From positions 2,790,001 through 2,854,000 of the forward strand of contig NZ_CP064908.1 of the NCBI RefSeq assembly GCF_015841355.1: 64,000 bases of DNA, in the 5' to 3' direction. This DNA is from Synechococcus sp. CBW1107. GTDB taxonomy: Bacteria; Cyanobacteriota; Cyanobacteriia; PCC-6307; Cyanobiaceae. The position numbers and the translations under genes were made by a program. Positions within the stretch are counted from its first letter, which is position 1, and each line of letters opens with the position of its first letter. Below are positions 7,827 through 39,251 of the stretch, in pieces. The notes below the pieces were generated by a model, which saw nothing but the letters and a program-made list of their open reading frames with translations, was not told where the DNA came from and did not search any database.

Positions 7827-8114
7827 TCATTCGTGGAACTCCCTCCAGACCAGCCAGTAGGCCAGATAGCCCACAGGAGGGCCCAGCAGCAGGGGCAGAA
7901 GGGCCAGCACGCCGAGGCTGAGCCCTCCCCAGAGGATGAGGCCGAGGCAGATGGCCAGATAGATCAGCACCATCAGCGTGATCAGCACCCTCTGCGTGGC
8001 CAGGCCAGAGACGAAGCGGTGCCAGGCCCGCTTCAGCAGCAGACCCCGGCGCCGGCTGGGGGGTACGTAGGCCGACCAGTCGACCGCAGGTTCGCGCTTG
8101 CGCTGCCGTCCCAT
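7827..8114 (-). CDS. Small membrane protein, last gene of the secretion operon
   Basis: 95 aa. ATG at 8114 overlaps the HlyD stop by one base (TGATG), so it is translationally coupled. It has a basic N-terminus (RQRKREP, RRRGLLLKR) followed by two hydrophobic segments (about residues 44-64 and 66-86). The family is not recognised. Position and coupling suggest an accessory inner-membrane subunit of the ABC/HlyD exporter, or a factor that stabilises it. This role is inference. Confidence 0.6.
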   Translation of the reverse strand: MGRQRKREPAVDWSAYVPPSRRRGLLLKRAWHRFVSGLATQRVLITLMVLIYLAICLGLILWGGLSLGVLALLPLLLGPPVGYLAYWLVWREFHE

Positions 8115-9628
8115 CACTTGTTGAGGCTGTTGATTCGCTCGAGGTCCTTGCGGCGATCGTCGAGGAAGCTGGTGAACAGGCTGATGAAGGAGCGCTGGCG
8201 CAGCTGGATGTCGGCGGCGAGGGCCATGCCCGGCTTGAGCGGGATCGGGCGGGTGCTGCCCTGGAGGCTCTGGCGGCGCAACTGGAGTACGGCGGGAAAG
8301 AAGAGGCCCGGCTGGTCGGTCTGGAGGGTTTCGGCCATCTCCTGGGTGGTGAGGGCATCGGAGCCGATGCTCTCCACCGTGGCGGGAATGCTGCCGAACT
8401 CGGAGGAGGGGAAGGTGGCGATCGAGATCTCGGCGTTCTGGCCAGGGGAGAGGAAGCCGATCACATCGTTGGGGATGAACACCTTGGCTTCGAGCGCATC
8501 GCCGGGGACCACGCGCAGGAGGGTCTTGGCCGATTCCACCACCGAGCCGGGGGAGACGTCGATGTCGAAGATCGAGCCGGCGCTGGGGGCGGTGAGCACG
8601 CTGTACTGGAGCTGCACGCGGGCCAGGCGGATCTGGCTGTCGAGCTCGGCGATCTGGCGCAGGTTGGCCTCGATGCGGCCGCGCAGGTCGGCATTGGGGG
8701 CGGCGCCGGTGTTGAGCGCTGTGGCGCTGAGGCTGGCGGCGGTGCGCTCCTCGCTGGCGAGGCTGGCCTCCAGCTCATTGACCTTGTTGCGGCTGTCGAG
8801 GGCCTGCACCTCGCTGACGGCGCCGCTGCGCGCAAGCGCCTCGAAGCGTTCGGCGATGTTGCGGGCCGTGGCCAGGCTGGTGCGCAGCCCGGCGATGCGG
8901 GCCTCGCTGGCCCGCAGCTGCTCGTCGGCCGCCAGGCGCCTGGTGCGCAGATCCTCGCTCTGGTTGCTGAGCTGGAGCCGCTGGTTGCTGGAGAGGCCGC
9001 TGGCCTGGGTGTCGCCGAGGGCGGCGGAGAGGATCTGGTTCTCGTTGAGCAGCCGCTCACGGATCGCCTCGGCGGCGGTGAGGCGGCTGCGGGCCTCGCG
9101 CAGATCGAAGCGGATCAGCTCCTGGCCCTGGCGCACGGTTTCGCCATCCTTGACGAGCACCGCTTCGATCACTCCGGGCACGGGCGCCTGGATCGTCTTG
9201 ACCTTGCTGCCGGGCTGGAGCTTGCCCTGCACAACCACGGTTTCCCCGAGGGGGGCCAGCACGGCCCAGACGCCGAAGGCGCCCACACCACCGAGCAGTG
9301 TCCAGACGATCAGGCTGGAGGCACGGCGGCTCTTGCGCAGCAGCACCGGCTGGTTGAACTGCCAGTCTGGAGGAGTGGCGAGCGGGGCGAGGGCGCCCTG
9401 GCTGGGGGCGGCTGGGCCTGTGGGTTCGGCCGGAGTGAGGAAGGGATGGTTCGGCAGGGTCGGAGCCGGGGCCGGCGGCGGTGGGGTGCTGTCGCCGACG
9501 AGGTCGACACGGACCGGCACCACGCGCTCATCCCGGCGGGGCCGGTGGCGGCGGGGGGAGCGCAGCCAGCCGAGGGCGCGCTCGTAGAGGTCGACCAGGG
9601 ATCCGCTGGACTCGCTGCTGTTGGCCAT
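8114..9628 (-). CDS. HlyD-family periplasmic adaptor of a type I secretion system
   Basis: 504 aa. It has a Pro-rich cytoplasmic N-terminus (about 45-90), one membrane segment (about 105-125, SLIVWTLLGGVGAFGVWAV), a lipoyl-like half-motif (VKTIQAPVPGVIEAVLVKDGETVRQGQELIRFD), a long coiled-coil hairpin (about 178-320) and a C-terminal beta-barrel region. By family it bridges the inner-membrane ABC exporter to a TolC-type outer-membrane channel, which is not in this window. It starts one base inside the stop of the ABC gene (TGATG). Confidence 0.92.
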   Translation of the reverse strand: MANSSESSGSLVDLYERALGWLRSPRRHRPRRDERVVPVRVDLVGDSTPPPPAPAPTLPNHPFLTPAEPTGPAAPSQGALAPLATPPDWQFNQPVLLRKSRRASSLIVWTLLGGVGAFGVWAVLAPLGETVVVQGKLQPGSKVKTIQAPVPGVIEAVLVKDGETVRQGQELIRFDLREARSRLTAAEAIRERLLNENQILSAALGDTQASGLSSNQRLQLSNQSEDLRTRRLAADEQLRASEARIAGLRTSLATARNIAERFEALARSGAVSEVQALDSRNKVNELEASLASEERTAASLSATALNTGAAPNADLRGRIEANLRQIAELDSQIRLARVQLQYSVLTAPSAGSIFDIDVSPGSVVESAKTLLRVVPGDALEAKVFIPNDVIGFLSPGQNAEISIATFPSSEFGSIPATVESIGSDALTTQEMAETLQTDQPGLFFPAVLQLRRQSLQGSTRPIPLKPGMALAADIQLRQRSFISLFTSFLDDRRKDLERINSLNK

Positions 9629-12600
9629 CAGAGACCTCCCTCCTGACCTTGGCTGGAGTGGAGGGCGTAGTACCAGCCCTGGCGCTGCATCAGCTCCCGG
9701 TGGCTGCCCGTCTCCATGATCGCGCCCTTGTCCATCATCACGATGCAGTCGGCGGGCTGGACGGTGCTGAGGCGGTGGGTGATGAAGAAGACCGTGCGGC
9801 CGCGGAAGGCCTCGAAGAGGTTGATGCAGACCTGGCGTTCGGTGCGGGCGTCGAGGGCGCTGGTGGCTTCATCGAGGATCAGCATGCGGGGGTTCTGGAG
9901 GACGGCGCGGGCGAGGGCGAGGCGCTGGCGCTGGCCACCGGAGAGACCGGCGCCCCGCTCGCCGACATCGGAGTTGTAGCCCTTGGGGAGCTCCATGATG
10001 AAGTCGTGGGCGCAGGCGATCCGGGCGGCGCGGATCATCTCGTCGGCCGTGGCGTCGGGCTTCACCAGCAGCAGGTTCTCACGCACGGTGCCGTCGAAGA
10101 GGACGCTGTCCTGGGGCACCACGCCGATCTGGCGGCGCAGGGAATAAAGCTCCACCTTGTTGATGTCGAGGCCATCGATCAGCACCTTGCCCTCGAGCGG
10201 CCGGTAGAAGCGGGGCAGCTGCTTGAGCAGGGTGCTCTTGCCGCTGCCTGAGCCGCCCACCATGCCCACGAAGGAGCCGGCCGGCACCTCCAGGTTGATG
10301 CTCTGGAGCACGAGCGGGCCGTCGTCGCTGAAGCGGAAGCTGACGTTCTGGAACTCCACCCGGCCGGTGAGGGGGGGCATCGGGATGTTGAGCGCCTCGG
10401 CGTCGCTCTGCTCGGTGGGGCGGTCGACCACGTCGGCCACCATCTGGATCGAGGCGGTGCACTGCTGGAACTGCTGCCAGGTGCTGGTGAGCTGCACCAG
10501 CGGGCGGGTGATGTAGCCGCTGAGGATGCGGAAGGCGATGAAGGCGCCGAAGGTGAGCTGGTTCTGGATGATGAGATAGACGCCCACACCGATCACGATC
10601 AGGCCATTGAGCTCGTTGATGAAGCCGGCCAGGTTGCTGATCGATTCCTTGCTGATCTTGAGCTTGAAGTCTTCGCCGATGAAGCGGGCGTAGCGATTCT
10701 GGAACTCCCAGCGGGTCTTGAGTTCGGCGTTCTGGGATTTGATCGTCTGGATGCCGGTGATCGATTCGTTGAGATAGGAGTAGGTCTTCACCGAGGCGCC
10801 CATGCTGCGCTTGATCTGGGCGCGCACCAGCGGGTTGCTGAGGAAGCTGAGGGCCAGCATCAGCGGCAGGGTGGAGAGGGTGGCGACGGTGAGCGGCACG
10901 CTGATGGCGAACAGCACGAACAGGTAGAGAAAGCTGAAGGCCAGATCCACCACGGTGGTGAGGCTGTTGCCGAGCAGGAAATCGCGCAGCTTGTCGAGCT
11001 GGCCGAAATAGAACATCACCTGGCCCACGGGCCGGCTGTCGAAGAAACCCTGGGGCAGCCGCACCAGGTGATCGAGGATGGTGCTCTTGGTGGCCTGGTC
11101 GATCCGGTTGGCGGTGTCGGTGAAGATGTAGCCGCGCAGGGTCTTAAGCACGGCCGCCACCAGGGCCGCCAGCAGCAGCACGAAGCAGATGGCGAGCAGG
11201 GCATTGACGTTGCGCTGGCGCACCACCTGATCGATCAGCACCTGCAGACCGAGGGGGGTGGCCAGGGCCAGCAGGTTGATCACGAAGGAGAGGGCCACCA
11301 CCTCCACCAGCTGGCGGCGGTGTTCGCGCAGGAAGGGCAGGAACCAGCCCCAGCTGAAGGTCTGCTCCTTGGCGTCGCTCTTGCGCTGCAGCAGCAGCAG
11401 CTCCACCCCGCCGTCGCCATCGCTGGCGAGCTGACCCGGCGGCAGCAGCAGGGGCCCCAGTTCGGGTTCGAGCAGGCGCAGGCGCCCGTCGTCGGTCACG
11501 CCTTCGAGGATGGCGAAGTGGCCCTGGGCGTGGAACACAGCCGGGGTGGTGGCGCGGCCGAGGCGGTCGGCGGGGAGCTTGGTGAGCACCACCCGCAGGC
11601 CGAGGGCATCGAGGATCTGGCCGAGGTTGATCAGGTTGAGGCCGCCCTGGCGGGCCAGCACCGCCTGCACCTGATCGCGCAGGGCGTCGCGGTTCACCGG
11701 CACGCCGAAGTAGTTGGCCAGGGCGATGCAGACCGCGATCGGAGCGTCGCGGGGCCCGGTGGCACGCTGCAGGCGCAGTTCGGCCTCCTCGCCGTGGCCT
11801 GGCGTGTGGGGAGCCGGCGTGGGCGGGGAGAGGGCATAGGTGCCGGCGCCGCTGCCCGGGGCCGGAGGGGCGGCCAGAGCCCCGGCCTGCGGAGCGGGGT
11901 TAGAGGCCGCCGAGTGCGGGGCTGGAGCTTCGCTGGCCGCTGCTTCGGAAGCGCTGCCGATCTGCAGATCGGGGGCGGACGTTGGCTCCTGGCCCAGGGG
12001 GGGCAGCCCCACCAGGCGCAGCCAGGGCGCGCCGGGGCTGGGCGGCACGGGCTCGCTGCCGAGGGTCCAGGGCTGCCCCAGCGGACCGCCGCTGCTGTGG
12101 AACCAGCTGAGCTCGGCGCTGAGGGCGAGCGGGGCGTCGGCCTTGTCGGAGGGCGTGAGGCTGCGCACCCGCGCCGCCTGGCGGATGGCGGGCCAGCCGC
12201 GCAGGGCGTCGGCCCAGCCGGGGTTCTGGCTGTGGAGGTCGACCAGAAGCCGGTGCAGCTCGGAGGCCGGCAGGGTGGTCTGGAACCAGAGGCGGAAGGC
12301 GTCGTGATCGGCGAGCAGGTCCTGGAAGAGGCCGGCGGGCAGCACCAGCACCTCCGCCTCCGACGACACGCGCATCTGCTCGCAGGGCTCGCCGCCAAGC
12401 AGGGAACACCAGCCCACGCAGGCGCCGGCCTGGAGCCGGTCGATGCTGGCGAGGTCGCCGCTGAGGGGGTCGGTGGCCAGCACGCGCAGGCTGCCGGAGC
12501 GCAGCAGCAGCAGGCCCTCGGGCATGCTGCTGCTGCGCAGCAGGGTCTGGCCGAGGCGGTAGCGGCGGGTGTCGAGCAGGGAGTCGAGACCGGCGAGCAC

Positions 12601-12687
12601 CTCGGCGGGCAGACGGTCGAAGGGGCGGATGCCGGCCAGCAGGCCCTGCTGGCGTTGTTGGGAGCGGCTGGTGGGGAGGGTGCTCAT
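9628..12687 (-). CDS. cNMP-binding/C39-like/ABC type I secretion exporter
   Basis: 1019 aa from ATG at 12687 (overlapping the ppiC-type stop as ATGA). Domains in order: a cyclic-nucleotide-binding-like beta-barrel (about 20-140), a Pro/Ala-rich linker, a C39 peptidase-like domain (about 300-425), six-helix ABC membrane domain (about 455-710) and an ATPase with Walker A GGSGSGKST (about 810) and signature LSGGQRQRLALA (about 914). In the C39-like domain the usual DCG with catalytic Cys reads DAPIAVC, so the Cys position is Ala. It is probably a non-cleaving substrate-docking domain as in HlyB. The layout resembles HetC-type exporters. An upstream extension to 12858 reads through the neighbouring gene and is not used. 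Confidence 0.9.
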   Translation of the reverse strand: MSTLPTSRSQQRQQGLLAGIRPFDRLPAEVLAGLDSLLDTRRYRLGQTLLRSSSMPEGLLLLRSGSLRVLATDPLSGDLASIDRLQAGACVGWCSLLGGEPCEQMRVSSEAEVLVLPAGLFQDLLADHDAFRLWFQTTLPASELHRLLVDLHSQNPGWADALRGWPAIRQAARVRSLTPSDKADAPLALSAELSWFHSSGGPLGQPWTLGSEPVPPSPGAPWLRLVGLPPLGQEPTSAPDLQIGSASEAAASEAPAPHSAASNPAPQAGALAAPPAPGSGAGTYALSPPTPAPHTPGHGEEAELRLQRATGPRDAPIAVCIALANYFGVPVNRDALRDQVQAVLARQGGLNLINLGQILDALGLRVVLTKLPADRLGRATTPAVFHAQGHFAILEGVTDDGRLRLLEPELGPLLLPPGQLASDGDGGVELLLLQRKSDAKEQTFSWGWFLPFLREHRRQLVEVVALSFVINLLALATPLGLQVLIDQVVRQRNVNALLAICFVLLLAALVAAVLKTLRGYIFTDTANRIDQATKSTILDHLVRLPQGFFDSRPVGQVMFYFGQLDKLRDFLLGNSLTTVVDLAFSFLYLFVLFAISVPLTVATLSTLPLMLALSFLSNPLVRAQIKRSMGASVKTYSYLNESITGIQTIKSQNAELKTRWEFQNRYARFIGEDFKLKISKESISNLAGFINELNGLIVIGVGVYLIIQNQLTFGAFIAFRILSGYITRPLVQLTSTWQQFQQCTASIQMVADVVDRPTEQSDAEALNIPMPPLTGRVEFQNVSFRFSDDGPLVLQSINLEVPAGSFVGMVGGSGSGKSTLLKQLPRFYRPLEGKVLIDGLDINKVELYSLRRQIGVVPQDSVLFDGTVRENLLLVKPDATADEMIRAARIACAHDFIMELPKGYNSDVGERGAGLSGGQRQRLALARAVLQNPRMLILDEATSALDARTERQVCINLFEAFRGRTVFFITHRLSTVQPADCIVMMDKGAIMETGSHRELMQRQGWYYALHSSQGQEGGL

Positions 12688-13484
12688 GCGGACGGGGCGT
12701 TGGGATCGCGGGGCAGAGGCATGAGGTCTTCGCCGGCCATAAGCAGGTTCACCTGCTCCTTGAACCAGACCTGAAACAGTTCGTCCACCATGCGGGCCCG
12801 CATGGCATCGTCGAGTTGAGCAGGAAAGCACTGCTCGAGGCGCACCAACAGCCACCATCCGGCCACTTTGAAGGGCGGCCAGAGCTGGCCTGGGCTGCCC
12901 ACCCGCAGCCGCTCGGTGAGGCTGGGGTGGCCGGCGGTGAGGGCGATCGGGCCGATCAGGCCGCGGGTGATGCGCTCGCGGCCCTCGGAGTGGGCGGCCA
13001 CGAGGGTGGCGAAGTCGGCCTCGCCTTCGCGCAGCTGCAGGTAGAGCTCCTCGGCTTCGTCGCGGTCGGAGACGCGCAGGAGCGAATAGGTGACCTGGTC
13101 GAGATCGAGCTTGCGATCGAGAAAGCGGATCTCGGCTTCGCTGCCGTAGCGGGCCTGGCTGAAGCGGCGCAGCCGTTCGGCCTTGGTGGCGAAGTAGCGC
13201 AGATCGGCCGACGACCAGCCCTTGCGGGCCAGCCAGGCGGCCAGGGCCTTGTCGTCCTTGACGCCTTCACCCTCCAGGTAGGCGCGCATCAGGGCGTTCT
13301 CCTCGTCGTCGCTGAGGCTGACGCTCTGCGCCACACGGTCGAGCACCACCCCCTGGGCCAGGGCCAGGCAGACCCCCTGCTGGCGCAGCAGGCGGTTGGT
13401 TTCGTCGACCGAGAGCAGCGGCTTGCGGGGGGAGATGGCGATCAGGGCGGGCGGCCTGACGCCGGAGAGGGGAGTGGTGCTCAT
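12684..13484 (-). CDS. PpiC/SurA-type peptidyl-prolyl isomerase-like protein
   Basis: 266 aa. ATG at 13484 overlaps the upstream glycosyltransferase stop (ATGA), and its own stop overlaps the ABC start the same way. A helical N-terminal region precedes a parvulin-like rotamase region (about 130-240: EAEELYLQLREGEADFATLVAAHSEG ... GLIGPIAL ... VGSPGQLWPPFKVAGWWLLVRLE). No signal peptide is visible, so it probably acts in the cytoplasm. Genes of this type accompany HlyD/ABC exporters in cyanobacteria. A chaperone role for the exported protein is inferred from the coupling. Confidence 0.8.
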   Translation of the reverse strand: MSTTPLSGVRPPALIAISPRKPLLSVDETNRLLRQQGVCLALAQGVVLDRVAQSVSLSDDEENALMRAYLEGEGVKDDKALAAWLARKGWSSADLRYFATKAERLRRFSQARYGSEAEIRFLDRKLDLDQVTYSLLRVSDRDEAEELYLQLREGEADFATLVAAHSEGRERITRGLIGPIALTAGHPSLTERLRVGSPGQLWPPFKVAGWWLLVRLEQCFPAQLDDAMRARMVDELFQVWFKEQVNLLMAGEDLMPLPRDPNAPSA

Positions 13485-16147
13485 CGCCGGCAGGGCAGGG
13501 AGAGACGCTGGAGCGCGGCGGCCATCAGATCGAGGCCATGGCTGCGGGAGAAGTGGGCCCGGGCGTGGTCCCGGGCGGCCTCGCTGGTGCGGCTCCAGAG
13601 GTCGTCGTCGACGATCAGATCGGTGATGGCCGTGCACCAGGCCTCGGGCTCGCGGGCGATGAAGGCCTCGGCGCCGTGGCGCAGCCCGGTGGCTTCGGCG
13701 GCCACGGGGCTGAGCACCTGGGGAATGCCGTGGGCCAGGGCGGCGATCACCTTGCCCTTGATGCCGGCGCCGGAGCGCAGCGGCGCGATGAAGACGCGGT
13801 GGCGCTCGTAGACCGTGCTGGCGTCGGTGACCCAGCCGTGCACGCGCACGCCCTGGATGGCCTGCCACCTCTCCTGCAGCTCCGGGCCGAGCCCGCTGCC
13901 ATAGAGATGGAACTCGAGATCGGGCAGACGCTCGTTCAGCAGGGGCCAGACATCTCCGAGGAAGCTTTCCACGGCGTCCTGGTTGGGTGGGTGCTGGTAG
14001 CTACCAAGGAAGGTGATGCCGCTGCGGCTCTCCAGGGGTGACGGCTGCTCCAGCGGCTCCACCACCCAGGGGCAGAGGGCGGTGGCGGCCTGGCCGAGGG
14101 TCTCGGCGGCGATCACCGCCTGCTCGATTTCGCTGTAGGTGAGGGTGAGGTCAACCCCGGCCATGGCCTCGATCTCCTGGCGGCGGGTTTCGCGCACGGA
14201 GGCCAGGGCGGCTTCGGCCTGTTCGCCGCTGAGTCCGGCGCTCTGGGCCTGGCGCAGCTCGCGCAGGTAGTGGAGGTCGGCGTTGCAGAAGATCAGCCGG
14301 GCCTGGGGGGCATGCTCCTTGAGCAGGGGCAGGCTGTCGCGCACGGTGGTGTAGCGGGTGAGATAGATGAAGTCGAATTCGCGGCCGCGCTCCCTGAGGA
14401 ACTGGTCGAGGGAGAGCACGAAGGGGGCATGGATCACCTCGATGCCGCGGCGCTGCAGCTCCTCGGTGTAGGTGCCGAGCCAGGCCAGGTTGGCCGGCAG
14501 GAAGGTGATCTTGTAGCCGAGGGCCTGGACCAGGTCCATCTCGGCGAGGGCGGCATGGCTGCCGGCGTCGCGGTCGGGGCGGGGGGTGGCGTGATCGATG
14601 AAGAGGGCACGGCCGAGGATGCCCCGGTCCTTGATCCGCTCGGCGGCCTCGAAGGAGGGCTCCGTCTCCCCCTCGAAGGCGTGCTGCCACTTGCGCTGGA
14701 AGGTGGGCCCGTGCAGGGTCTGGAAGCGCTTGAGGCCCTCACTGGTCTCGGGGTCGGGGTCGGTGCCACAGCTGAGGCCCTCGTGGTGGATCACCCGGGA
14801 GAGGGGGGCGTAGCGCACCACCAGGCCGGCCTGACGCACCTTGAAGGCCAGGTCGGTGTCCTCGTAGTAGGCGGGGGAGAACTCGGGGCTGAAGCCGCCC
14901 AGCTGCCCCCAGAGCTCCCGGCGCAGGGCCAGGGCGGAACCACTCACGTAATCCACCTGGCGGGTGTAGCTCACGCCGGGGGCATGGGGATTGCGGCCCC
15001 GCCCGTAGTTCCAGGGTTCGCCGTTCCCCCAGACGATGCCGCCGGCCTCCTGCAGCCGTCCGTCGGGATAGAGCAGCTGGGAGCCGGTCATGCCGGTGTC
15101 CGGCCAGCGCTGGAACGGTTCGAGCAGCTCCTCGAGCCAGAGGGCACAGGGCTCGGTGTCGTTGTTGAGCAGCACGATGAACGTGCCTCGGGCGGCGGCC
15201 ACGCCGCTGTGGCAGGCCTGGTTGAAGCCGCGGGCGTAGTCGTGGCGGACCACCTGCACGCCTGGTGCCTCCCGGCTCAGGGCTTCGGCGGTGCCGTCGG
15301 AGGAGCCGTCGTCGACGACGATCAGCTCGAAGGGCACGCGGGTTGGTGCATAGGCGAGGGCGGCGAGGCAGCGGCGCGTGACGGCGTACTGGTTGTGGGC
15401 CGGCACCACCACCGACACCAGGGGCTCGGGGCTGAGCGGCAGGTGGATCGGCTGGCGGGCCACCGGCACGCCACGGGGCCCGGCCTCCTCGCCGGGGGCG
15501 GCGTTGGCGGGGGGACCGATGGGTGCGCTCAGCAGCCGCTGCAGCAGGGGCAGGTCGGCCGGGAGTGGGGTGCCGTGGGCGTCGGCCCAGTGCAGCCAGG
15601 TGGTGAGGCTGCGCAGATGCTCCCGGGCCAGGGGGTTGAGCTGGTCGGGAAAGGGAGCCCGGCCATGGTCCTGCAGGGCCGACCAGGGGGTGAGCTGAAA
15701 GGGGGTGATCTCGAGGCTCTCAGCCCGCAGCAGCCCCTCGCTGTCGTGGATGGCGAGATGGTGGGGGCGGCCATCGCAGCTGGCGGGGGGCAGGGGCAGA
15801 TGGAACTGCCCGTCGGGCCTGGCGCTGACGCGGCCGGCGGGCACGCCATCAACGCGCAGCTCCAGCTCCTGGCCGTGGGGGGCCCAGCCCACCACGAAGG
15901 GGCCGTTGAGGGCCTCGAGGCGCACGGTTCCACCGGCGGCGCGGCGGCTCAACTGCTCCAGGGCTGGGTAGCGGTCGTCATCGAGGCGCAGGGGGCTGCC
16001 GGGCAGCTCCACGGCGGGATCCCCCTGCACCAGGGCGCGCAGCACGAGGCCGGTGGAGCGGGGGGGGATCTCCATGCCGCTGCGGCCAGGGAAGGCGAAG
16101 CCGCAATTGAGGGGCAGGCCCTGCTGGCCGAGATCCGGGCGCGGCAT
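13481..16147 (-). pseudogene. Bifunctional GT2-GT4 glycosyltransferase, main part, 5' end split off by IS256
   Basis: This 888-codon remainder is open from an internal ATG at 16147. It carries a carbohydrate-binding-like N-terminal region, a GT2 domain (about 240-470: VSVVVPAHN, VVDDGSSDG, LNNDTEP, YYEDTDLAFKVR) and a second GT-B type transferase domain (about 505-885, ending in a nucleotide-sugar site with LRSGAGIKGKVIAALAHGIPQV). The true 5' end lies at 17843-18044 beyond an inserted IS256 element. Removing the element and one 9-bp target copy restores LGEAEAS-MPRPDLG in one frame. The internal ATG could still allow translation of both catalytic domains. It is the first gene of the coupled secretion operon. 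Confidence 0.85.
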
Positions 16148-16450
16148 CGAGGCTTCCGGCCGCGTCCCTTTGCGTGGTGTAAAACCCGAGGCCCGAATGC
16201 CCTAGTCAGAGGGTGAACAGGGTGGAATGACGGGCTGTCATTCCGGAGGTGCAGATGCGCCTCGTTCAATCACGATGAATCAGGACGAATGACTTGTCAA
16301 GTCTTTCGTCAGCTTGCGGATGTGTTGTGAGTTGGAGTGACTTCTGCGGCCTGGAGGTGGCAGCGGCCGGCCCCCGGGCTGCGATCAAGGCCGCTGCGCC
16401 CTCTGGGGGCGCTGCAGCCTCGATCACCTGGGGCCTGCGTCCTGCCTCTC

Positions 16451-17677
16451 TCAGGTGCTGAGGGCCTGGAGAGCAGGGATGGCATCCAGCTCCGGGATGG
16501 TCGCCATGCTCTCGGCTGAGAACATGCGCCGGCCCTCCAGCTGCCAGTGCTCGTGCTGCTCCAGCAGTACCGCGCCCACCAGGCGGGTGATCGACGCGTC
16601 GTTGGGGAAGATGCCGACGACCCTGGTGCGGCGTTTGATTTCCTCGTTGACCCGCTCGAGCAGGTTGGTGCTCCAGATCTTGCGCCAGTGGTCCTTGGGG
16701 AAGTGGCGGAACGCCAGCACGTCCTCCTTGGCCTCATGCATCAGCGCAGCGGCCTTGGGGAAGCGCTCCGCCAGCGAGGCCGCCAGATCATCCCAGCGGG
16801 ACTCGATCTCTTCCGCGCTCTCCTGAGCGAACACGCTGCGCAGGGCGGCGGTGACCATGCCCTGGTGAGCCTTGGGAACGCACTGCAGCAGGTTGCGGGC
16901 AAAGTGGACCCGGCAGCGCTGCCAGACGCTGCCCTGCAGCTGCCGTCGGATGGCCTTGGTGAGTCCGCTGTGGGCGTCAGAGATCACCAGCTTGACGCCA
17001 GCGAGGCCTCGCTCCTTGAGGTGGGCGATGAACTCCGCCCAGAAGGGCTCGCTCTCGCTGTCGCCCACCTTGAGGCCCAGCAACTCCCGGCGCCCGTCCT
17101 CGTTCACCCCCATGGCGACGACGACGGCGCGGGAGCAGACCTGCTGAGCCTTGCCCAGCCGCCCCTTGAGGTAGGTGGCATCGAGGTAGACGTAGGCGTA
17201 GCCGCTGCTCTCCAGCGGCCGGCCCAGGAACGCCTGCACCTGCTGGTCGATCTCCTGACAGATGCGACTCACCTGCGACTTGGAGATGCCGCTCTGGGAG
17301 CCGAGCGCCGCCACCAGGGCATCGACCTTGCGGGTCGAGACCCCACCGATGTAAGCCTCCATGATCACCGCGTACAGGGCCTGATCAACCCGGCGGCGGG
17401 GTTCGAGGATCGAGGGGAGGAAGCTGCCCGCGCGCAGTTTCGGGATCTGCAGTGCCAGATCCCCCACCTGGGTGGTCAGGGTGCGAGGCCGGTAGCCGTT
17501 GCGGTGGCCGAGCCGCTCCTCGGTGCGCTCGTGCCAGTCCGCACCGAGGAAGGCAGCGAGCTCCAGCTCGATCAGCTGCTGCAGGCCGTGGCGTGCCAGT
17601 TCAGGGATCAGCTCCCCGGCACTGCTGCCATCGAGTAGCGAGGCCAGCTCAGGTACGGCAGCATGGGTCTTGGGCAT
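16451..17677 (-). CDS. IS256-family transposase
   Basis: 408 aa from ATG at 17677 (MPKTHAAVPEL). It shows the full set of IS256 (Mutator-type) landmarks: VYLDATYLKGR (first Asp), VISDAHSGLTKAI (second Asp), QRCRVHFARNLL, and WSTNLLERVNEEIKRRTRVVGIFPN (catalytic Glu). It looks intact. It is clearly related to, but distinct from, the transposase at 42571-43827. Confidence 0.95.
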   Translation of the reverse strand: MPKTHAAVPELASLLDGSSAGELIPELARHGLQQLIELELAAFLGADWHERTEERLGHRNGYRPRTLTTQVGDLALQIPKLRAGSFLPSILEPRRRVDQALYAVIMEAYIGGVSTRKVDALVAALGSQSGISKSQVSRICQEIDQQVQAFLGRPLESSGYAYVYLDATYLKGRLGKAQQVCSRAVVVAMGVNEDGRRELLGLKVGDSESEPFWAEFIAHLKERGLAGVKLVISDAHSGLTKAIRRQLQGSVWQRCRVHFARNLLQCVPKAHQGMVTAALRSVFAQESAEEIESRWDDLAASLAERFPKAAALMHEAKEDVLAFRHFPKDHWRKIWSTNLLERVNEEIKRRTRVVGIFPNDASITRLVGAVLLEQHEHWQLEGRRMFSAESMATIPELDAIPALQALST

Positions 17678-17772
17678 GGTCTGTCTGGTTGAGGTGGTTC
17701 TCAAACCAGGGAAACGGGCCTGCCCACCCCTTGCAACGTCAGCCGTGGAGCCGATCGCCTGAGGTGCGGACG

Positions 17773-17797
17773 CTCAGCCCGGCTACGCCGGGCTGAG
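17773..17797. repeat. Hairpin upstream of IS256 copy 1 transposase
   Basis: A perfect 11-bp stem (17773-17783 with 17787-17797) with a TAC loop lies just inside the right inverted repeat, upstream of the transposase start. An equivalent hairpin with a slightly shifted stem and the same TAC loop lies at the matching place in IS256 copy 2 (43918-43942). A role in shielding the transposase from read-through transcription is inferred. Confidence 0.7.
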
Positions 17798-17842
17798 GCC
17801 CTGGGGATTTACACCACTGCCGGGGACGCCAGCAGGCTTCCG

Positions 17843-18174: not shown

Positions 18175-20145
18175 GTGACCCCACTGGAGACCACACCCCT
18201 GGAGAGCAAGGACACGCTGGATGGGCCGGAGGAGCTGTTCGCTCGCTCGCGCCAGCTGGTGATCGACACGCTCGAGGCCCTGGAGCGAGGAGACGATGCC
18301 CAGGCCCTGGCCCTGATCCCGGATGTGCTGCGCTCCTACGCCTGGCTGTGGGTGGCCCTGGCCGAGGCGCGGCGCGCCCTGGAGGCCGAGGAGGGGGAGA
18401 TGCTGGCCCAGCTGCTGGCGGCGATCTCGGCACGGGTGCGGCGCAACGACGAGGGGGAGGCCACTCCGGAGGACCGGGCCGAGCTCAGCTGGCTGGTGCC
18501 GGTGCTGATGGACCGGCTGCGCAGCCGCGGCCGGGAGCTGCCCCACTGGCTGCCTCCCCTGGAGGAGCAACTCACGCGCATCGGCTCGCAGCTCTGGGTG
18601 GACCGCCATCGCGAGGATCCCGGCTGCGCCGAGGCGCGGCCCCGGGCCCTCAAGCTGCTGCTGCGGCTCTGCGGACTGCATGCGCCGCCAAAACCCTGGA
18701 TGGTGGGCTTCGCCCGGGACCTGCTGGCTGAGGAGCTGGACGCCGCCGAGCGTCTGGCGGCGGCCGGCCCGCTCGATGAGGACACCAGCGAGCGGCTGCG
18801 CTTCTGGCAGGGGCAGCTGGCCCAGGTGGACTTATCCGATCCCGGCCTGGAGGAGAAACTCGCCGCCCTGCTGCCGCCGCCATCCCCCCAGCCCGCGGCG
18901 GCCGACGCCGGTGACCTGCAGGAGAAGATCCGCGAGAGCGTGCTGCACTGGCTAGAGGACAATCCCGCCGGCACGGTGCCGGCGGAGCTGCGGCTGGTGT
19001 GCGTGCCGGGAGCGCGGGTGGTGCCCCACGACGGCCAGCGGCTCGATCTCAACCTGGCGCCCCTGCTCTCAGTGGCCGAACCGGATGCGCTCGAGAGGCT
19101 CGTGCAGGCCTTCTTCGCGCCGATCCGCGAGCAGCAGCGGGGGCCGGGGTTCACCCTGCGGGAGCCGACCAGCAGCCTCTACGACTCCCTCGGCCTGCTC
19201 TGGCGTCAGGGAGACACCCTGAGCGAGGCCGCCTTCCGGCGCCTGGCGGAGGCCACGGCCAGCTGGAACCGCTGCGGCGGCCCAGGGGCTCTCGGCTCGC
19301 GGCCGCTGGCCTCCAGCTTCGCGGCAGCGGAGCTGCGGGAGGGACTGAGCGTGCTGGCGCCGGACGCCCTGGAGCTGGTGGCCCTGCATGCGGTGCTGTT
19401 CAAAGCCGGGGCCCTGGAGGAGGTGATGGCCGAGATCCGCCGCCGGCACCTCGACACCGGCTGGATGGCGCGCCCCGGCGGTGCTGACGTGGAGGAGATT
19501 CTGCGACGGCTGCACCTGGAGGCGGGTTTCTATGCCAGCGGCCACGCACCGCTGGAGAGCCTGCAGCAGTGGAGCCAGAGGGTGCTGCAGGCGCTGCTGG
19601 GGGGGCAGGTGGCCGGATCGGCCACCTGCACGGGCTTCTATCCGCTGGCCCAGAAGCTTTTCGAGAGCAGCGGCCGGGTGCCCGAGCTGTTTCAATGGCC
19701 ATCTGACGCGGCGATCTACCGGTTCCTGGCCGGAAAGGAGGTGGTGGCGGCCACCACCCTGGCGACGGAGGTGGAGGAGCACCACCACACCGGCCACGCC
19801 TTCAAGCTGTTCACCGACCTGCCGATCGCGCCCTACGGCCTGCGCTGCGTTCAGGCGCCGCTGTCGCGGTATCCGCAGCGGCCGGCCGCCGACTTCATGG
19901 CGAGCCTGGACGAGTGCCTCCAGCAGATCGAGGCGCTGCACCGTCAACGCCCCTTCCGGGTGTTCGTGGCGGCCTGCGGTGCCTACGGACTTCCGCTGTG
20001 TGAGGCCGTGAACCGGATCTACGGGGTGAGCTGCCTCTGCAGCGGTGATCACATGAACGCCTACTTCGGTGTGGAGTCAGAGGGCGCTGTTGACTGGCGC
20101 ATCGGCAGCCGGATCGCTGAGCATTGGCGCACCGTGGCCGGATGA
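18175..20145 (+). CDS. Large glycan-cluster protein of an uncharacterised family, paralogue 1
   Basis: 656 aa from GTG at 18175. It is a soluble, mostly helical protein. The last 100 residues hold the most recognisable part, VFVAACGAYGLPLCEAV followed by CSGDHMNAYFGV, which recalls a nucleotide-binding-like terminal domain (xxGAYGLPL ... G ... xxFG) seen in polysaccharide-cluster proteins of unknown function. Paralogue 2 (22013-23764) aligns with it over the C-terminal half, including a shared APYGLRC/APHGLRC segment followed by a conserved RYPQRP/RHPRRP motif. A sugar-transfer role is possible but not shown. It overlaps the next gene by ATGA. Confidence 0.6.
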   Translation: MTPLETTPLESKDTLDGPEELFARSRQLVIDTLEALERGDDAQALALIPDVLRSYAWLWVALAEARRALEAEEGEMLAQLLAAISARVRRNDEGEATPEDRAELSWLVPVLMDRLRSRGRELPHWLPPLEEQLTRIGSQLWVDRHREDPGCAEARPRALKLLLRLCGLHAPPKPWMVGFARDLLAEELDAAERLAAAGPLDEDTSERLRFWQGQLAQVDLSDPGLEEKLAALLPPPSPQPAAADAGDLQEKIRESVLHWLEDNPAGTVPAELRLVCVPGARVVPHDGQRLDLNLAPLLSVAEPDALERLVQAFFAPIREQQRGPGFTLREPTSSLYDSLGLLWRQGDTLSEAAFRRLAEATASWNRCGGPGALGSRPLASSFAAAELREGLSVLAPDALELVALHAVLFKAGALEEVMAEIRRRHLDTGWMARPGGADVEEILRRLHLEAGFYASGHAPLESLQQWSQRVLQALLGGQVAGSATCTGFYPLAQKLFESSGRVPELFQWPSDAAIYRFLAGKEVVAATTLATEVEEHHHTGHAFKLFTDLPIAPYGLRCVQAPLSRYPQRPAADFMASLDECLQQIEALHRQRPFRVFVAACGAYGLPLCEAVNRIYGVSCLCSGDHMNAYFGVESEGAVDWRIGSRIAEHWRTVAG

Positions 20146-21161
20146 TCCACTACGCCATCCAGGACCACGGCGCGGGTGCGGCCCTGCCCCTGATGGTGAG
20201 GCTTCTGGACGGGCCAGGCGTCTCGATCGACATCAGCTTCGATGCCGCGGATGGGGCGCTGGAGACGGTGAGCGCGGCGCTGGGAACCCGGGGACCAGCC
20301 CTGAGCCTGCGGCGCTCGCCCTCCATCTCCTGGTCGGGGATTGGGTTTCACACCCAGATGATCGACGCCATGCAGCGGGCCTTGCATCTGCCCGGCTGGA
20401 CCTACTTCATCAATGCCTCCGGCAGTTGCCTGCCCCTCCGAAGCCCTGCCTGGACGCAACAGCTACTCGAGGAGCAGGCGGCCCAGGGATGGCTGGGCTT
20501 CTGCGACTGCTACCGGCTGGGCAAGCCGCTGGCCTGGATCTCCAGCCAGACGGAACCGGCGACCCTGAAGCGGTGCTTCGGCCACGAGATCTACGGGCGG
20601 GCGCGGCTGCTGGTGGATCCCTGCCTGCAGGAGATGGTGGAGGAGAAGCGGCTGGATCCGGCCCGGAACATCGGCCAGCGGGTAGGGCTGATGTACACCG
20701 AAGTGGAGAAGAACACCTACTGGGTGCGGCCGCTCAGCCCCGCTGAACTGGAGGAGCGGGCGCGGTTCCTGGCGGAGCAGCCGTTGCGCTACGGCCGCAG
20801 CTGGCTGGTGCTGCACCGCTCGATCGTGGAGTGGCTGCTGGAGTCGACCATCCTGGAGCGGACGCTGGAGTTCATGGCGGGCTGCTTCTGCGCCGACGAA
20901 CTGATCTTCGCGATGACCCTGTACAGCCCTGAGAATCCCTTTCTGGCCGCGATGTGTCCGGACAATCTGCGCCACCGGCAGGGGGGGCCGCAACGGATCC
21001 CGCTCGAGGAGATCCCGGCGATCCTTGCCACGGGCGACCGTCTGATGGCGCGCAAGATCTCTGCGGCCGACTATTCCGCCGCCGCCGAGCTGGTGCGGCG
21101 GTTCAACGCTGATCCCGTGCCGCCCCGACGTGAAGACCATTCCTTATTGTCTGACGATTAA
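20142..21161 (+). CDS. Core-2/I-branching (GT14-like) glycosyltransferase
   Basis: 339 aa. ATG at 20142 overlaps the preceding stop (ATGA). MIHYAIQDHGAG starts the fold. SISWSGIGFHTQMIDAMQRAL followed by YFINASGSCLPLRSP matches the beta-1,6-N-acetylglucosaminyltransferase (Branch) pattern vSWgg ... lSGxDxPL, and the C-terminus has MARKISAAD, like the conserved FARKF. The family is usually Golgi/animal or bacterial; bacterial members add branch sugars in surface polysaccharides. The donor is not predictable. Confidence 0.7.
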   Translation: MIHYAIQDHGAGAALPLMVRLLDGPGVSIDISFDAADGALETVSAALGTRGPALSLRRSPSISWSGIGFHTQMIDAMQRALHLPGWTYFINASGSCLPLRSPAWTQQLLEEQAAQGWLGFCDCYRLGKPLAWISSQTEPATLKRCFGHEIYGRARLLVDPCLQEMVEEKRLDPARNIGQRVGLMYTEVEKNTYWVRPLSPAELEERARFLAEQPLRYGRSWLVLHRSIVEWLLESTILERTLEFMAGCFCADELIFAMTLYSPENPFLAAMCPDNLRHRQGGPQRIPLEEIPAILATGDRLMARKISAADYSAAAELVRRFNADPVPPRREDHSLLSDD

Positions 21162-21173
21162 GAACCGGCGCGG

Positions 21174-22016
21174 GTGCTCGCCAACCTCCTCCACCTCCAC
21201 GGCTTCAAGTGCGCGGGCAGCACCTTCATCTGGTCGCTGGAGCGTGCCACGAAGGGAGATGTGCTCTACCTGGAATCCCCGGGGGCCGGTGACCGGCTCG
21301 ACTGGCGGCTGGCGCGCGACTACCTGGCCACGTTGGAGCGCCAGCCTCAGGCGATCACCTCCCATCTGATCTGCCTGCCGCCCCCCGGGGCGGTCGCCGC
21401 ACTGAAGGTGGCCTTCCTGCGGGAGCCGATCGAGCGCATCGCCTCGGCCTACCGTTTCCAGACCCAGGTGCAGAAGACGGCGGAACCGGTGTCCTTCTGC
21501 CAGTATCTGGAGGGCCTGCAGCGGGGAACCCTGGCCAATTTCCAGACCCGACACCTCTCCCCCCAGGAGCCTGGCGACTGGGTGCTGCGCCGGGGCTGGG
21601 CCGCCCGGCCGGAGCTGATCGATCTGAGCCGTGAGGATCTGTTCGTGGGGCTGGTGGAGCGCTACGACGACTCGATCCTGGCGCTGGAAGACCAGCTGGA
21701 GCGGATGGGTATGGCGATGGACCTGGCCTATGCGAGGCCGGTCAACACCACCCGGGAGGCTGGCGCAGCCAATCAACCGATGGCGCCGGAGGCGCGGTTG
21801 GCGCACACGCCGTTGGGACTGGCTCTGACAGAGCTGGATCTGAGCCTTCAACGCCGCGTTGAACAGCGGCTGGAGGAGCGGCTGGCGGCGGTGAGCGACC
21901 TGGAGCGCAAACGGGCGGCTCTGCAGCGGCGGCGTGCCGCCCTCGATGACGCACCGCCGCGTGTGCAGCTCAAACCCCAGGCCGAGTGGGTGAATCTGCC
22001 GTTGCCGTCGGCATGA
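21174..22016 (+). CDS. Sulfotransferase family 2-like protein
   Basis: 280 aa from GTG at 21174. LHLHGFKCAGSTFIWSLE matches the 5'-phosphosulfate-binding loop and AFLREPIERIASAYRF the 3'-phosphate-binding motif of PAPS-dependent carbohydrate sulfotransferases. A coiled-coil tail (about 225-262) follows. It probably sulfates a surface glycan. It overlaps the next gene by ATGA, so it belongs to the same operon as both large paralogues. Confidence 0.75.
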   Translation: MLANLLHLHGFKCAGSTFIWSLERATKGDVLYLESPGAGDRLDWRLARDYLATLERQPQAITSHLICLPPPGAVAALKVAFLREPIERIASAYRFQTQVQKTAEPVSFCQYLEGLQRGTLANFQTRHLSPQEPGDWVLRRGWAARPELIDLSREDLFVGLVERYDDSILALEDQLERMGMAMDLAYARPVNTTREAGAANQPMAPEARLAHTPLGLALTELDLSLQRRVEQRLEERLAAVSDLERKRAALQRRRAALDDAPPRVQLKPQAEWVNLPLPSA

Positions 22017-23764
22017 GCCGGCCGCTCGCCGCCGAGCACCAGCGCTGTGATCGCCAGGCTCGGGCGGTGCTTCAGGCGGGCGAGTGGCAGCAGGCTCTGG
22101 AGCAGGTGGAGCGGGCCCAGACGTTGGTGCGGGACGCCCTCAGCGCGGGCCAGGGGAGCGGCGAGATCCCCCTGGAAGCTCACGCCAAGCTGGTGCAAGC
22201 GTTGATCGGCGCGGTTCATCCACGCATCGTTGCTGCTGAGGAAGGCGGCCTTGCGGCCGAAGACCGGGCGGAGCTGTGCTGGCGGCTGGCGACGCTGCTG
22301 GAGCGCCATGGAAGCCTGCCGCTGGAGCGCCCCGGCTGGTTGCCGGTGGCGGAGGAGCAGCTGGTACGGCACGGGGCCTTGCTCTGGCGGGAGGCCATCG
22401 GCGTGCGGGAGCAGGCGGAGCCGCGGGCGCTGGCGATGTTTCAGCGGCTGGCGCAACTGCTGGAACCCTGCCCGGCCTGGGTGAGCACAAGCCTTCAGGA
22501 GCTGGAGCGGAACACGCCGGTTTCGGCAACGGCCCAGCCTTTGTGGCTTGAGCTGGTGCTGAGGCCCGGCCAGGCGGAGGTGATCGCCAGCGGGGATCGG
22601 CGGCAGTTCAACCTGGCGCCGGCCCTGGAGACGAACGAGCAGGAGCCACCGCCGGAGCGGCTGGCCGCCTTCCTGCGGGAGCAGGCGACGGATGCGCCGA
22701 GTGCGCCAGCGTCCGTGACGATCGTCCACCCGTTGACCAGCCTGGGTACGGATCTGGCCGTGCTGGCCCTCCTGGGCGAAGAACTGCCGGCGGAGCGGCT
22801 GCCGGCGCTGCAGCGGGCGGCGGCGGCCTGGATGGAGCAGGCGGCAGGCCTGGGTCTGGCGGTGCAGAGCTTGATGCGCTCGCCGCAGCGCCTTGAGGGG
22901 CAGGAGATGGTGCTGGAGCTGGATGCCATCGAGCTGGCGGTGCTGCAGCTGGGGGCGATGCGCGACGACGACGAGCTGGCGGCTGCATTGCACACTCTGG
23001 AGCAGAGCGAGCGCGATCCTGGCTTCTGGCGCCAGGGGGAGCGCCAGCGGCATTGGTGGCAGGGCGAGCTGGTGGTGGTTGACGTGCTGCGCCGTTTTGC
23101 GCGCGAACTGGGCTTCTACCCCGCCCGGGAGGATCCGCTGGCCAGCCTGCGGGCCTGGTGCCACGACGGCCTGGCCCTGCTGGCGGAGGCGGCGCTGCTG
23201 GAGCAGGTGACGCTGTGGAGCTCGGCGGAGGCGCCCGAGTGGTTGCTGTTGCCCCTGCATCAGCAGCTCAGCCGCGGCTCGGGCCGTTTCGCCCAGGTGG
23301 GGGGGCGGCCCGAGTTGGCGGAGCTGCAGGCGCTGCTGGCGGGCCAGGAGGTGCTCTACATCGGGCCGCTGGCGGAGGTGGTGGAGGCGCAGTGGAGGGA
23401 AGGACGCTGCTGGCGGCTGTGGCAGGGCCGGGAGGTGGCCCCCCACGGCCTGCGCTGCCTGGCACCGCCCGAATCGCGCCATCCGCGCCGGCCCCATGGC
23501 GGCTTCGAGGCGAGCCTGGCGCACTGCCTGGAGGCGGTGGAGCGGCTGCTGGACCAGCAGCCGGCCACGCTGGCGCTGATCGGAGTGGGGACCTACCGGC
23601 TGCCGCTCTGCCGTGCCCTGCGCGATCGCCATGGGTTGCGCTGCCTGGGCTTCGGGGTCGAGTTGCCTCAGCTGTATGGGGTGGAGCGGCCGGGTGAGGA
23701 GCCGGTGTGGGGCGCCCAGGACCGGAATTCGAGCCAGTGGCGGCGCCTGGCCGACGAGGGTTAG
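22013..23764 (+). CDS. Large glycan-cluster protein of an uncharacterised family, paralogue 2
   Basis: 583 aa from ATG at 22013 (ATGA overlap; in-frame codons upstream to 21986 lie inside the sulfotransferase gene). It has the same overall plan as 18175-20145: a helical N-terminus, a central region with HPLTSLGTDLAVLALLGEELP against EPTSSLYDSLGLLWRQGDTL in paralogue 1, and a terminal LIGVGTYRLPLCRALRDRHGLRCL ... PQLYGVE domain. Its position after the sulfotransferase suggests it acts in the same glycan pathway. The function is unknown. Confidence 0.6.
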   Translation: MSRPLAAEHQRCDRQARAVLQAGEWQQALEQVERAQTLVRDALSAGQGSGEIPLEAHAKLVQALIGAVHPRIVAAEEGGLAAEDRAELCWRLATLLERHGSLPLERPGWLPVAEEQLVRHGALLWREAIGVREQAEPRALAMFQRLAQLLEPCPAWVSTSLQELERNTPVSATAQPLWLELVLRPGQAEVIASGDRRQFNLAPALETNEQEPPPERLAAFLREQATDAPSAPASVTIVHPLTSLGTDLAVLALLGEELPAERLPALQRAAAAWMEQAAGLGLAVQSLMRSPQRLEGQEMVLELDAIELAVLQLGAMRDDDELAAALHTLEQSERDPGFWRQGERQRHWWQGELVVVDVLRRFARELGFYPAREDPLASLRAWCHDGLALLAEAALLEQVTLWSSAEAPEWLLLPLHQQLSRGSGRFAQVGGRPELAELQALLAGQEVLYIGPLAEVVEAQWREGRCWRLWQGREVAPHGLRCLAPPESRHPRRPHGGFEASLAHCLEAVERLLDQQPATLALIGVGTYRLPLCRALRDRHGLRCLGFGVELPQLYGVERPGEEPVWGAQDRNSSQWRRLADEG

Positions 23765-24734: not shown

Positions 24735-24757
24735 GCCATGGCAACGGATCTCTCCAG

Positions 24758-25318
24758 GCTGCAGCGCCGCAGTGACCCGGTGGCCCTGCTCACCACGATC
24801 CGACGCTGCCAGGGACAGCTGGCGGTGCTGGCCAGCGGTGAGCAGGGCTCTGCCTTGCAAGCCAGTCGAACGGACAGGGATCTGGCTGCGGAGAACCGAT
24901 CGCTGGAGGTGTTCCTGGGCGGGCTGCAGACCCTCTGGCAGACCAACCAGCCCAGGCGGCGCAAGCCCAAGCCACGCACCGGCAAACGCACCAGGCCGGA
25001 TCCCTTTGCAGCGGATGTGGAGCGGATTGAGCAATGGCTGCAGGCCGAGCCCCAGCTCCAGGCCAAGACGCTGCTGGAGCGGCTGATCCGCCACAACCCG
25101 GACCACTACGGAGCACGCCACCTGCGCACCCTGCAGCGGCGCCTGCGCGGTTACCGGCTGCAATGGATCGAAAAGGAGATGGCCACTCTGGTGGCGGACA
25201 GGCCCTCAGGATTGGAGGATGCCCAAAGCGGTGAGAAGCCAGTGTTACCAGGCGTCAATTGGAATGGGTAACAAGTTGTTGATGCAAAGCGCCCGCCTAA
25301 GTAGTTGACATCGGGCAC
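24758..25318 (+). mobile_element. 3' fragment of a DDE insertion sequence (second copy at 50265-50825)
   Basis: This 561-bp stretch matches 50265-50825 almost base for base, with only a handful of substitutions, in the same orientation. It carries the last 170 or so codons of the integrase-type transposase (LQRRSDPVALLTTIRRC ...) and the right end of the element (motif GCGCCCGCCTA ... TTGACATCGGGCA). The 5' two thirds are absent. A one-base change near the stop extends the frame to 25271 (ends VNWNG instead of VN). The open frame from ATG at 24738 is therefore not an independent gene. Confidence 0.9.
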
Positions 25319-32628: not shown

Positions 32629-33402
32629 GTGAAAGCAGTAATCCTTGCGGGCGGCCTCGGCACGCGGATCTCGGAGGAAACCCACCTCAAACCAAAGCCG
32701 ATGATAGAAGTGGGCGGCAAGCCTATTTTATGGCACATCCTGAAGATCTACAGCCATTACGGCATCCACGATTTCATCATCTGCTGTGGCTACAAAGGAT
32801 ACGTTATTAAGGAGTATTTCGCAAACTATTTTCTGCACACGAGCGATGTCACTTTTGACATGAGTGATAATTCAATGTTGGTGCATTCGCGCAAGGCAGA
32901 GCCTTGGAAGGTGACGCTGGTCGACACCGGCGATTCCACCCTCACAGGCGGCCGCCTGGCTCGGGTACGCGACTACCTCACTGACGACGAGCCCTTCTGC
33001 TTCACCTACGGCGACGGCGTTTCTGACGTTAATATTGGTAGGTTGCTAGCTCACCACCGGCGCGAAGGCCGCAAGGCGACACTCACCGCCGTGCAGCCGC
33101 CCGGGCGCTTTGGCACGCTGGCGTTCGAGCGGGGTCGAGTGATTCGCTTCGAGGAGAAGCCCCAGGGAGACGGCTACTGGATCAACGGCGGGTTCTTCGT
33201 GCTTGATCCCTCCGTGATCGATCTGGTGGACGGCGATCAGTGCACCTGGGAACAGCAGCCACTAAAGACGCTGGCAGAAACTGGGCAGCTGACGGCTTAC
33301 CACCACGAGGGCTTCTGGCAGCCGATGGACACCCTGCGGGACAAGACGCTGCTCGAGGATCTCTGGCAGGCCGGCAAGGCGCCATGGAAGGTCTGGAACT
33401 GA
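32629..33402 (+). CDS. rfbF: Glucose-1-phosphate cytidylyltransferase
   Basis: 257 aa, the usual length, from GTG at 32629; ATG 32618 is out of frame. It makes CDP-glucose from CTP and glucose-1-phosphate, the first step to CDP-3,6-dideoxyhexoses. [17 protein letters not shown] and [17 protein letters not shown] are the nucleotide-binding and substrate signatures, and [16 protein letters not shown] and [10 protein letters not shown] (metal-binding Asp) are typical of RfbF. rfbG follows after four bases, so this gene heads the operon. Confidence 0.95.
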
Positions 33403-33406
33403 CGCA

Positions 33407-39249: not shown

Positions 39250-39251
39250 GG

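Follow-up and report, generated by a model that had tools for sequence, protein, structure and literature searches.

What do two large related proteins do when their genes stand beside those of a glycosyltransferase and a sulfotransferase? The proteins, here called P1 and P2, are encoded in a 64,000-nucleotide stretch of the Synechococcus sp. CBW1107 genome (3.2 Mb, one contig), and this whole stretch is referred to below as the window. A preliminary description of the DNA had presented them as members of an uncharacterised family that alternate strictly with the two enzymes and may catalyze two consecutive steps on one glycan. Both open reading frames (ORFs) exist (18175-20145, 656 residues; 22013-23764, 583 residues), and the GAYGLPL and GTYRLPL motifs and the C-terminal ends GDHMNAYFG and GVELPQLYG are present as described. 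The analysis reveals that P1 and P2 are GT-D-like proteins of a new, two-module type, and that they are linked with a type I exporter and a glycan-building locus. The reading that we favor, and to which we give an even chance of being right, is that they are two-module glycosyltransferases without the classical Asp-X-Glu site, P1 belonging to an export-linked glycosylation machine and P2 being a spin-off beside the sulfotransferase.

P1 and P2 are true paralogues whose similarity extends over nearly their full length, far beyond chance. BLASTP aligns them with 31% identity over 414 columns (E 8e-35), and a second shared stretch lies near the N-terminus (P1 residues 75-183, 39% over 110 columns). 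The similarity ascribed earlier to a shared C-terminal domain is therefore real, but it is not limited to the C-terminal ~150 residues; in P1 it covers residues 265-655 in addition to the N-terminal stretch. P1 and P2 are the only members of the family in their own genome at E<=1. Neither contains a Pfam family at E<=1, and scans of both against NCBIfam and PHROGs returned chance-level rows only, as did a Protein Data Bank (PDB) search with the family profile. A PDB sequence search with P1 gave no match; P1 has no match among phage records and P2 none among plasmid records. In a phylum-wide sample, the large family occurs in two of 194 genomes (E<=1e-6), the host and one other of the same bacterial family, to which 13 of the listed genomes belong. 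Relatives with named records (seven loci) come from Cyanobium, Synechococcus and unclassified Synechococcaceae.

The C-terminal half of P1 and P2 is a divergent GT-D-like domain, and this homology is firm. A profile of the large family, built from 26 proteins, was compared with nine short proteins (307-402 residues) recovered as weak matches in genomes of the host's bacterial family. The profile-profile alignment reaches 98% probability and E 6.5e-14 over 201 columns. When six short homologues were scanned with PF22882 (GT-D-like), the one at locus L035 passed (32.3 bits, cut-off 27) and the other five matched below the cut-off. Short and large proteins have a common C-terminal G-x-Y-x-L-P-L motif and the same order of landmarks, and a relaxed alignment pairs the R-x-G-x-x-E of the short proteins with an L-D-A-x-E-L-type stretch of the large ones. 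The GT-D family PF08759 has no match in P1 or P2 (E<=1) or in their genome (E<=1e-5). A PDB sequence search for solved relatives of the short proteins gave none at E<=10. We found no paper on PF22882 or GT-D-like proteins, and literature searches on GT-D, DUF1792, SwmA and type I secretion with a glycosyltransferase returned nothing that we recognised as concerning the P1/P2 family. The term uncharacterised holds for the full proteins, which match no Pfam family, but not for their C-terminal halves. A confident match to a known enzyme family, named in the preliminary description as the result that would speak against it, is likewise absent for the full proteins and present at the level of this domain.

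Structure models support the assignment for P2. AlphaFold2 models of P1 (mean predicted local distance difference test score, pLDDT, 84.0; predicted TM-score, pTM, 0.62) and P2 (mean pLDDT 82.0, pTM 0.67) were built from 11-row alignments, one row of which (L071:11085-12485) shares the N-terminal module only; by length and place it is the same WcbI protein as L051_7482, mentioned below. VIA-align places three DUF1792/GT-D structures on the C-terminal half of the P2 model: 4phr (solved with manganese; Z 11.1, 212 residues, 4.7 Å), 5v4a (Z 11.0, 197 residues, 4.3 Å) and 4pfx (Z 10.7, 208 residues, 4.6 Å). The other 47 listed rows fall on the N-terminal half. Foldseek retrieves 4pfx (E 0.13, probability 0.93) and 4phr (E 0.17, probability 0.90) weakly, and its first three rows for P2 are weak matches to SPY and OGT (E 0.003-0.008, root mean square deviation over 20 Å). 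For P1, the whole-protein fold search was rejected as a guide to the C-terminal half: the 50 listed VIA rows cover residues 1-243 only and represent 14-3-3 and designed helical proteins (Z 10.0-11.3, about 5-6 Å). The Foldseek rows for P1 are of the same helical kinds or are long alignments at about 20 Å or more. As a separate observation, the best viral matches of the P2 model (BFVD, Foldseek) are uncharacterised giant-virus proteins of Moumouvirus and Hyperionvirus, A0A2P1ELU1 and A0A3G5A8V2 (E 1.4e-6 and 4.8e-6).

In DUF1792, the Asp-X-Glu motif binds manganese, according to the portion of PMC6493773 that treats it. The column aligned with this Asp is non-acidic in all 26 rows of the P1/P2 family. 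The Glu column (P1 Glu400) holds Glu in 22 rows and Gln in four. Mainly this Glu is kept from R-x-G-x-x-E; the Arg and Gly positions are changed in both P1 and P2, and the Arg in most family rows. For comparison, an R-x-GDGE ORF is found in 18 of 20 fetched PF08759 loci, the same pattern having served to pick those ORFs. The domain may be a metal-independent transferase or an inactive one, and its activity is uncertain. The loss of the Asp, and of the Glu in the four rows that have Gln instead, may mean that it is inactive. On this view, which we consider rather unlikely, the GT-D-like domains are inactive scaffolds: the helical module holds glycan enzymes together, and the dead fold only binds glycan or nucleotide. 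The changed Arg and the occurrence of the N-terminal module in other enzymes also speak for it. None of the nine short homologues has an acidic residue at the Asp position, however, so the loss is not special to the P1/P2 family and may reflect another catalytic set-up. The scaffold explanation is also at odds with the conservation of the domain, since seven family columns are invariant, including G602, L606 and P607, and R557 (25/26), S564 (24/26) and Y604 (24/26) are nearly so.

The first ~170 residues of P1 and P2 are a separate helical module, probably an adaptor, that is found with several kinds of glycan enzymes in these bacteria. The ORFs of the window and of 35 further loci (L034-L068) were searched with separate profiles of the N- and C-terminal modules. 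The N-module occurs without the C-module in nine ORFs, six of which contain other glycan enzymes according to Pfam: it is fused to GT2 in L043 and L044, to WcbI (a family of polysaccharide proteins) plus GT61 in L045 5002-7518 and L056 3538-6282, to WcbI in L051 7482-8885 and to an FkbM methyltransferase in L046. The remaining three (261-521 residues, two incomplete) contain no Pfam family. Conversely, the C-module stands without the N-module in the nine short GT-D-like proteins and one 91-residue fragment. Across 201 genomes, a tool-drawn sample from a larger bacterial family, the N-module is present in 29. A GT2/GT4-like gene, detected at E<=1e-60 in 37 of the 201, is found in all but one of these 29; the N-module genome without one is G083. 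We also note a 276-residue frame with an N-module (G037 contig 5, 90759-91202) that adjoins a distant GT2/GT4-like gene and is possibly a stand-alone adaptor.

The linkage of P1-type genes to an exporter operon is firm. A strong match to the P1/P2 family (E<=1e-40, a threshold chosen after the list was viewed, which drops G083, G155, G084, G142 and the short GT-D-like matches) is found in 23 of the 201 genomes; at the looser E<=1e-3 there are matches in 35. Close orthologues of the 888-residue GT2/GT4 protein of the window (E printed as 0) are present in 24 genomes, including all 23 with a strong family match (Fisher p 2.4e-29, phylogeny ignored). By these thresholds, the sample includes genomes with both genes and genomes with neither in each of six genera (g1, g6, g10, g31, g45 and g47). 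Only G119 has the GT2/GT4 orthologue without a family member, and none was found elsewhere in that genome; the neighbor of its GT2/GT4 gene cannot be seen because the contig stops 413 bp past the match. In each of the 22 relatives, a P1-type gene stands head-to-head with the GT2/GT4 gene, and PpiC and then ABC (ATP-binding cassette) genes are next in line. HlyD is present in 19 of the 22; the other three stretches end before it. A family tree of 39 rows (nine members or fragments were excluded beforehand, and rows L046 and L051_7482 were later found to hold the N-module only) assigns P1 to a clade whose 18 members are GT2/GT4-linked (support 95/97). The ABC protein has a C39-like domain and the exporter-kind family PF00664, and together with the HlyD adaptor it fits a type I secretion locus. 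In the window and 21 relatives, the ABC proteins lack D-C-G, the motif of active C39 peptidases.

The window has this operon too (8114-16147), but an insertion separates it from P1. This transposon-like element (16159-17834) between the divergent GT2/GT4 and P1 genes is flanked by 8-bp direct repeats (16151-16158 and 17835-17842), has imperfect inverted repeats (16162-16194/17797-17829, 76%) and is presumably of the IS256 type. It may alter P1 expression.

The constancy of this neighborhood bears on another explanation, unlikely on balance though the strongest competitor, in which the product of the locus is a sulfated or branched exopolysaccharide, capsule or O-antigen, and the nearby type I exporter has no part in it. 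Sulfotransferase, GT14 and GT2 proteins are encoded downstream on the same strand, as are NTP transferase, GDP_Man_Dehyd-type dehydratase and DegT aminotransferase family genes. There is also precedent, as cyanobacteria are known to have sulfated-exopolysaccharide clusters that include glyco- and sulfotransferases (sections of PMC13125312). An unrelated exporter is hard to reconcile with GT2/GT4, PpiC and ABC genes that adjoin the P1-type gene in every one of the 22 relatives, or with an ABC protein of the exporter kind. Moreover, no polymerase, flippase or ABC-2 polysaccharide exporter appears among the 28 window proteins scanned, although many ORFs of the window lie outside this set and such genes may be located elsewhere.

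P2 seems to have a different partner. In the tree it groups with sulfotransferase-linked members, with weak support (84/88, 82/80). Sulfotransferase homologues occur in 11 of the 201 genomes, and a P2-type gene adjoins one in four of them (the window, G192, G072 and G059, where the sulfotransferase copy has two stops inside the match). Five of the 11 (G030, G032, G054, G074 and G186) have no strong family member. An exclusive link to P2 is further contradicted by G157, with two sulfotransferase copies near a P1-type gene, and by G192, in which the sulfotransferase also adjoins a WcbI/GT61 protein with an N-module.

These distributions weigh on the proposal that P1 and P2 act one after the other on a single glycan, in related steps that alternate with branching by GT14 and with sulfation. 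The four genes do lie together like an operon, and two of the three junctions are ATGA overlaps (20142 for P1/GT14, 22013 for sulfotransferase/P2), but 12 nucleotides separate the GT14 stop codon (21159-21161) from the sulfotransferase GTG (21174). The actual order is P1, GT14, sulfotransferase, P2, which is not a strict alternation. The GT14 assignment stands above its Pfam cut-off (PF02485, 33.9 versus 23.4 bits, best stretch 56 residues), and that of the sulfotransferase falls below (PF03567, 17.3 bits, cut-off 22); by eye, the latter protein has what we take to be motifs for 3'-phosphoadenosine 5'-phosphosulfate (PAPS). The paralogy of P1 and P2 and the two sulfotransferase copies near the P1-type gene of G157 would suit consecutive steps. 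None of the 200 other genomes searched yielded a GT14 homologue at E<=1e-10, however, and because this gene is unique to the host (1/201), so is the four-gene arrangement; the gene order is not conserved. In G072, the P2-type/sulfotransferase pair lies ~0.6 Mb from the P1-type gene, and the constant partner of P1 is the GT2/GT4-PpiC-ABC-HlyD operon. We therefore regard consecutive action on one glycan as the least probable of the readings considered here.

A role in glycan building, as the preliminary description supposed, is supported because of the GT-D-like domain and the many glycan-enzyme neighbors. In the two-module glycosyltransferase reading that we favor, P1 and P2 would be duplicated proteins, each made of a helical adaptor and a divergent GT-D-like half, and would transfer sugar without the classical GT-D metal site. 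P1 would be part of a fixed machine with the GT2/GT4 protein, the PpiC foldase, the C39-like ABC exporter and HlyD, and this machine would build a glycan on a type-I-exported surface protein; P2 would be a spin-off working beside the sulfotransferase. We infer that the proteins are catalytically active, with a sugar donor and an acceptor, and that the substrate of the exporter is that acceptor. A bolder version, which we consider doubtful, takes the N-module as a tag by which enzymes dock on a glycosylation machine of picocyanobacteria that is coupled to export and has not been described before: tagged GT-D-like, GT2, GT61, WcbI and FkbM enzymes would assemble on the GT2/GT4-PpiC-type I exporter and glycosylate a surface protein (and sulfate it, via the partner of P2) just before or during export, the GT-D-like domains acting without a classical metal site.

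A candidate for the exported protein is encoded in G035, the genome with the nearest relative of P1, where the next gene downstream (L049 1899-9089) specifies a protein of 2396 residues that combines four malectin stretches with Calx-beta and, at the C-terminus, RTX/M10_C domains. From these domains it is a plausible type I substrate. The malectin/RTX giant was rejected as a general substrate because it is absent from the host genome and has only one other long relative, in G192 (query 1-1564 in pieces of a 1634-residue frame).

Several results weigh against the glycosyltransferase reading, in addition to the non-acidic Asp column and the Gln rows given above. PF22882 has no match in P1 or P2 (E<=1) or in their genome (E<=10), and in four large relatives it gives one weak match (14.9 bits) and three blanks. 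PF08759 GT-D proteins do not align significantly with the short GT-D-like proteins (hhalign, 0.2%). The P1 model has no GT-D row among the Foldseek and VIA matches listed, and the Foldseek TM-scores by target of the P2 model, at the E values quoted, are only 0.36 (4pfx) and 0.38 (4phr). On the side of the substrate, the host genome has no relative of the 2396-residue protein at E<=1e-10 and no RTX family PF00353 at E<=0.01, non-RTX substrates being possible. Twelve genomes were inspected further out, some of them on just one side, and ORFs that match the Calx-beta repeats of this protein are present within ~50 kb only in G090, G197 and G175.

Table 1. Coordinates of P1, P2 and associated features in the window
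Feature	Position	Strand	Remarks
P1, 656 residues	18175..20145	+	Helical N-module and GT-D-like C-terminal domain
P1 N-terminal helical module	18196..18702	+	In other proteins, homologous modules stand before or alongside GT2, WcbI + GT61, WcbI and FkbM domains
P1 GT-D-like domain	19237..20142	+	Own-family profile match, residues 355-636
P1 Glu400	19372..19374	+	Aligned with Glu of R-x-G-x-x-E
GAYGLPL motif of P1	19978..19998	+	Sequence
GT14-like transferase	20142..21161	+	PF02485; ATGA overlap with P1
Sulfotransferase-like protein	21174..22016	+	PF03567, below cut-off
P2, 583 residues, P1 paralogue	22013..23764	+	ATGA overlap with sulfotransferase gene
P2 helical N-module	22019..22483	+	
P2 GT-D-like domain	22805..23692	+	Model superposes on 4phr, 5v4a and 4pfx, Z 10.7-11.1
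GTYRLPL motif of P2	23588..23608	+	Sequence
GT2 + GT4 protein, 888 residues	13481..16147	-	Head-to-head partner of P1-type genes in relatives
PpiC-type peptidyl-prolyl isomerase-like protein	12684..13487	-	
Type I exporter ABC protein	9628..12858	-	Cyclic nucleoside monophosphate (cNMP)-binding, C39-like (without D-C-G motif) and ABC domains
HlyD-type adaptor	8114..9628	-	
Insertion between P1 and usual neighbor	16159..17834	-	Transposase ORF 16451-17704

Further downstream, the frame at 28268-29929 has a TPR-like start followed, by eye, by an apparent frameshifted sulfotransferase-type protein, with no Pfam match; several relatives have, next to P1-type genes, ORFs that match its first ~100 residues. 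The gene run at 32629-40160 encodes NTP-transferase, dehydratase, DegT aminotransferase-type, HAD, thiamine pyrophosphate (TPP)-dependent, HpcH/HpaI aldolase and epimerase proteins, which we take to suggest an unusual cytidine diphosphate (CDP)-linked branched sugar, perhaps yersiniose-like. Near-identical stretches of one transposase-like ORF are found at 24738-25271 and 49606-50769, and the region at 42.5-57 kb of the window appears by eye to be dense in transposase remains.

Glycosylation seems to occur on surface proteins of Synechococcus, SwmA among them, and the sections of the literature that we found do not name the enzymes responsible. The P1/P2 locus points to a way of adding sugars to something sent to the cell surface, and the P1-type gene, as the regular companion of a glycan builder and a type I exporter, marks a definite locus for deletion. 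In this family, moreover, the GT-D-like fold takes a form that lacks its known metal motif, and several kinds of glycan enzymes are seen to share a helical module that has no name yet.

Four known systems invite comparison. PF22882 is linked to P1 and P2 by their strong profile homology to the short proteins (one of them above the Pfam cut-off), by the G-x-Y-x-L-P-L motif and by the order of landmarks; P1 and P2 differ in not reaching the Pfam profile, in the loss of R-x-G and in the helical N-module, which the nine short proteins lack. The dGT1 enzymes (DUF1792/GT-D, PF08759; 4pfx, 4phr and 5v4a) resemble the C-terminal half of P2 in fold (Z ~11), whereas P1 and P2 have no PF08759 match, lack the Asp of Asp-X-Glu and are associated with another secretion partner; the DUF1792 enzymes act on secreted serine-rich surface adhesins, as stated in parts of PMC6291802 and PMC5063993. 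OGT and SPY, which combine TPR with a glycosyltransferase, likewise place a helical N-terminus before a transferase-type domain, but the C-terminal domain of P1 and P2 is GT-D-like rather than GT-B and Pfam detects no TPR family in them. Finally, the comparison with SwmA and type I export in Synechococcus offers a precedent from the same bacterial group: SwmA, from strain WH8102, belongs to the RTX surface proteins and, from portions of PMC3034196, appears to be glycosylated. The P1/P2 genome differs in having no RTX family match.

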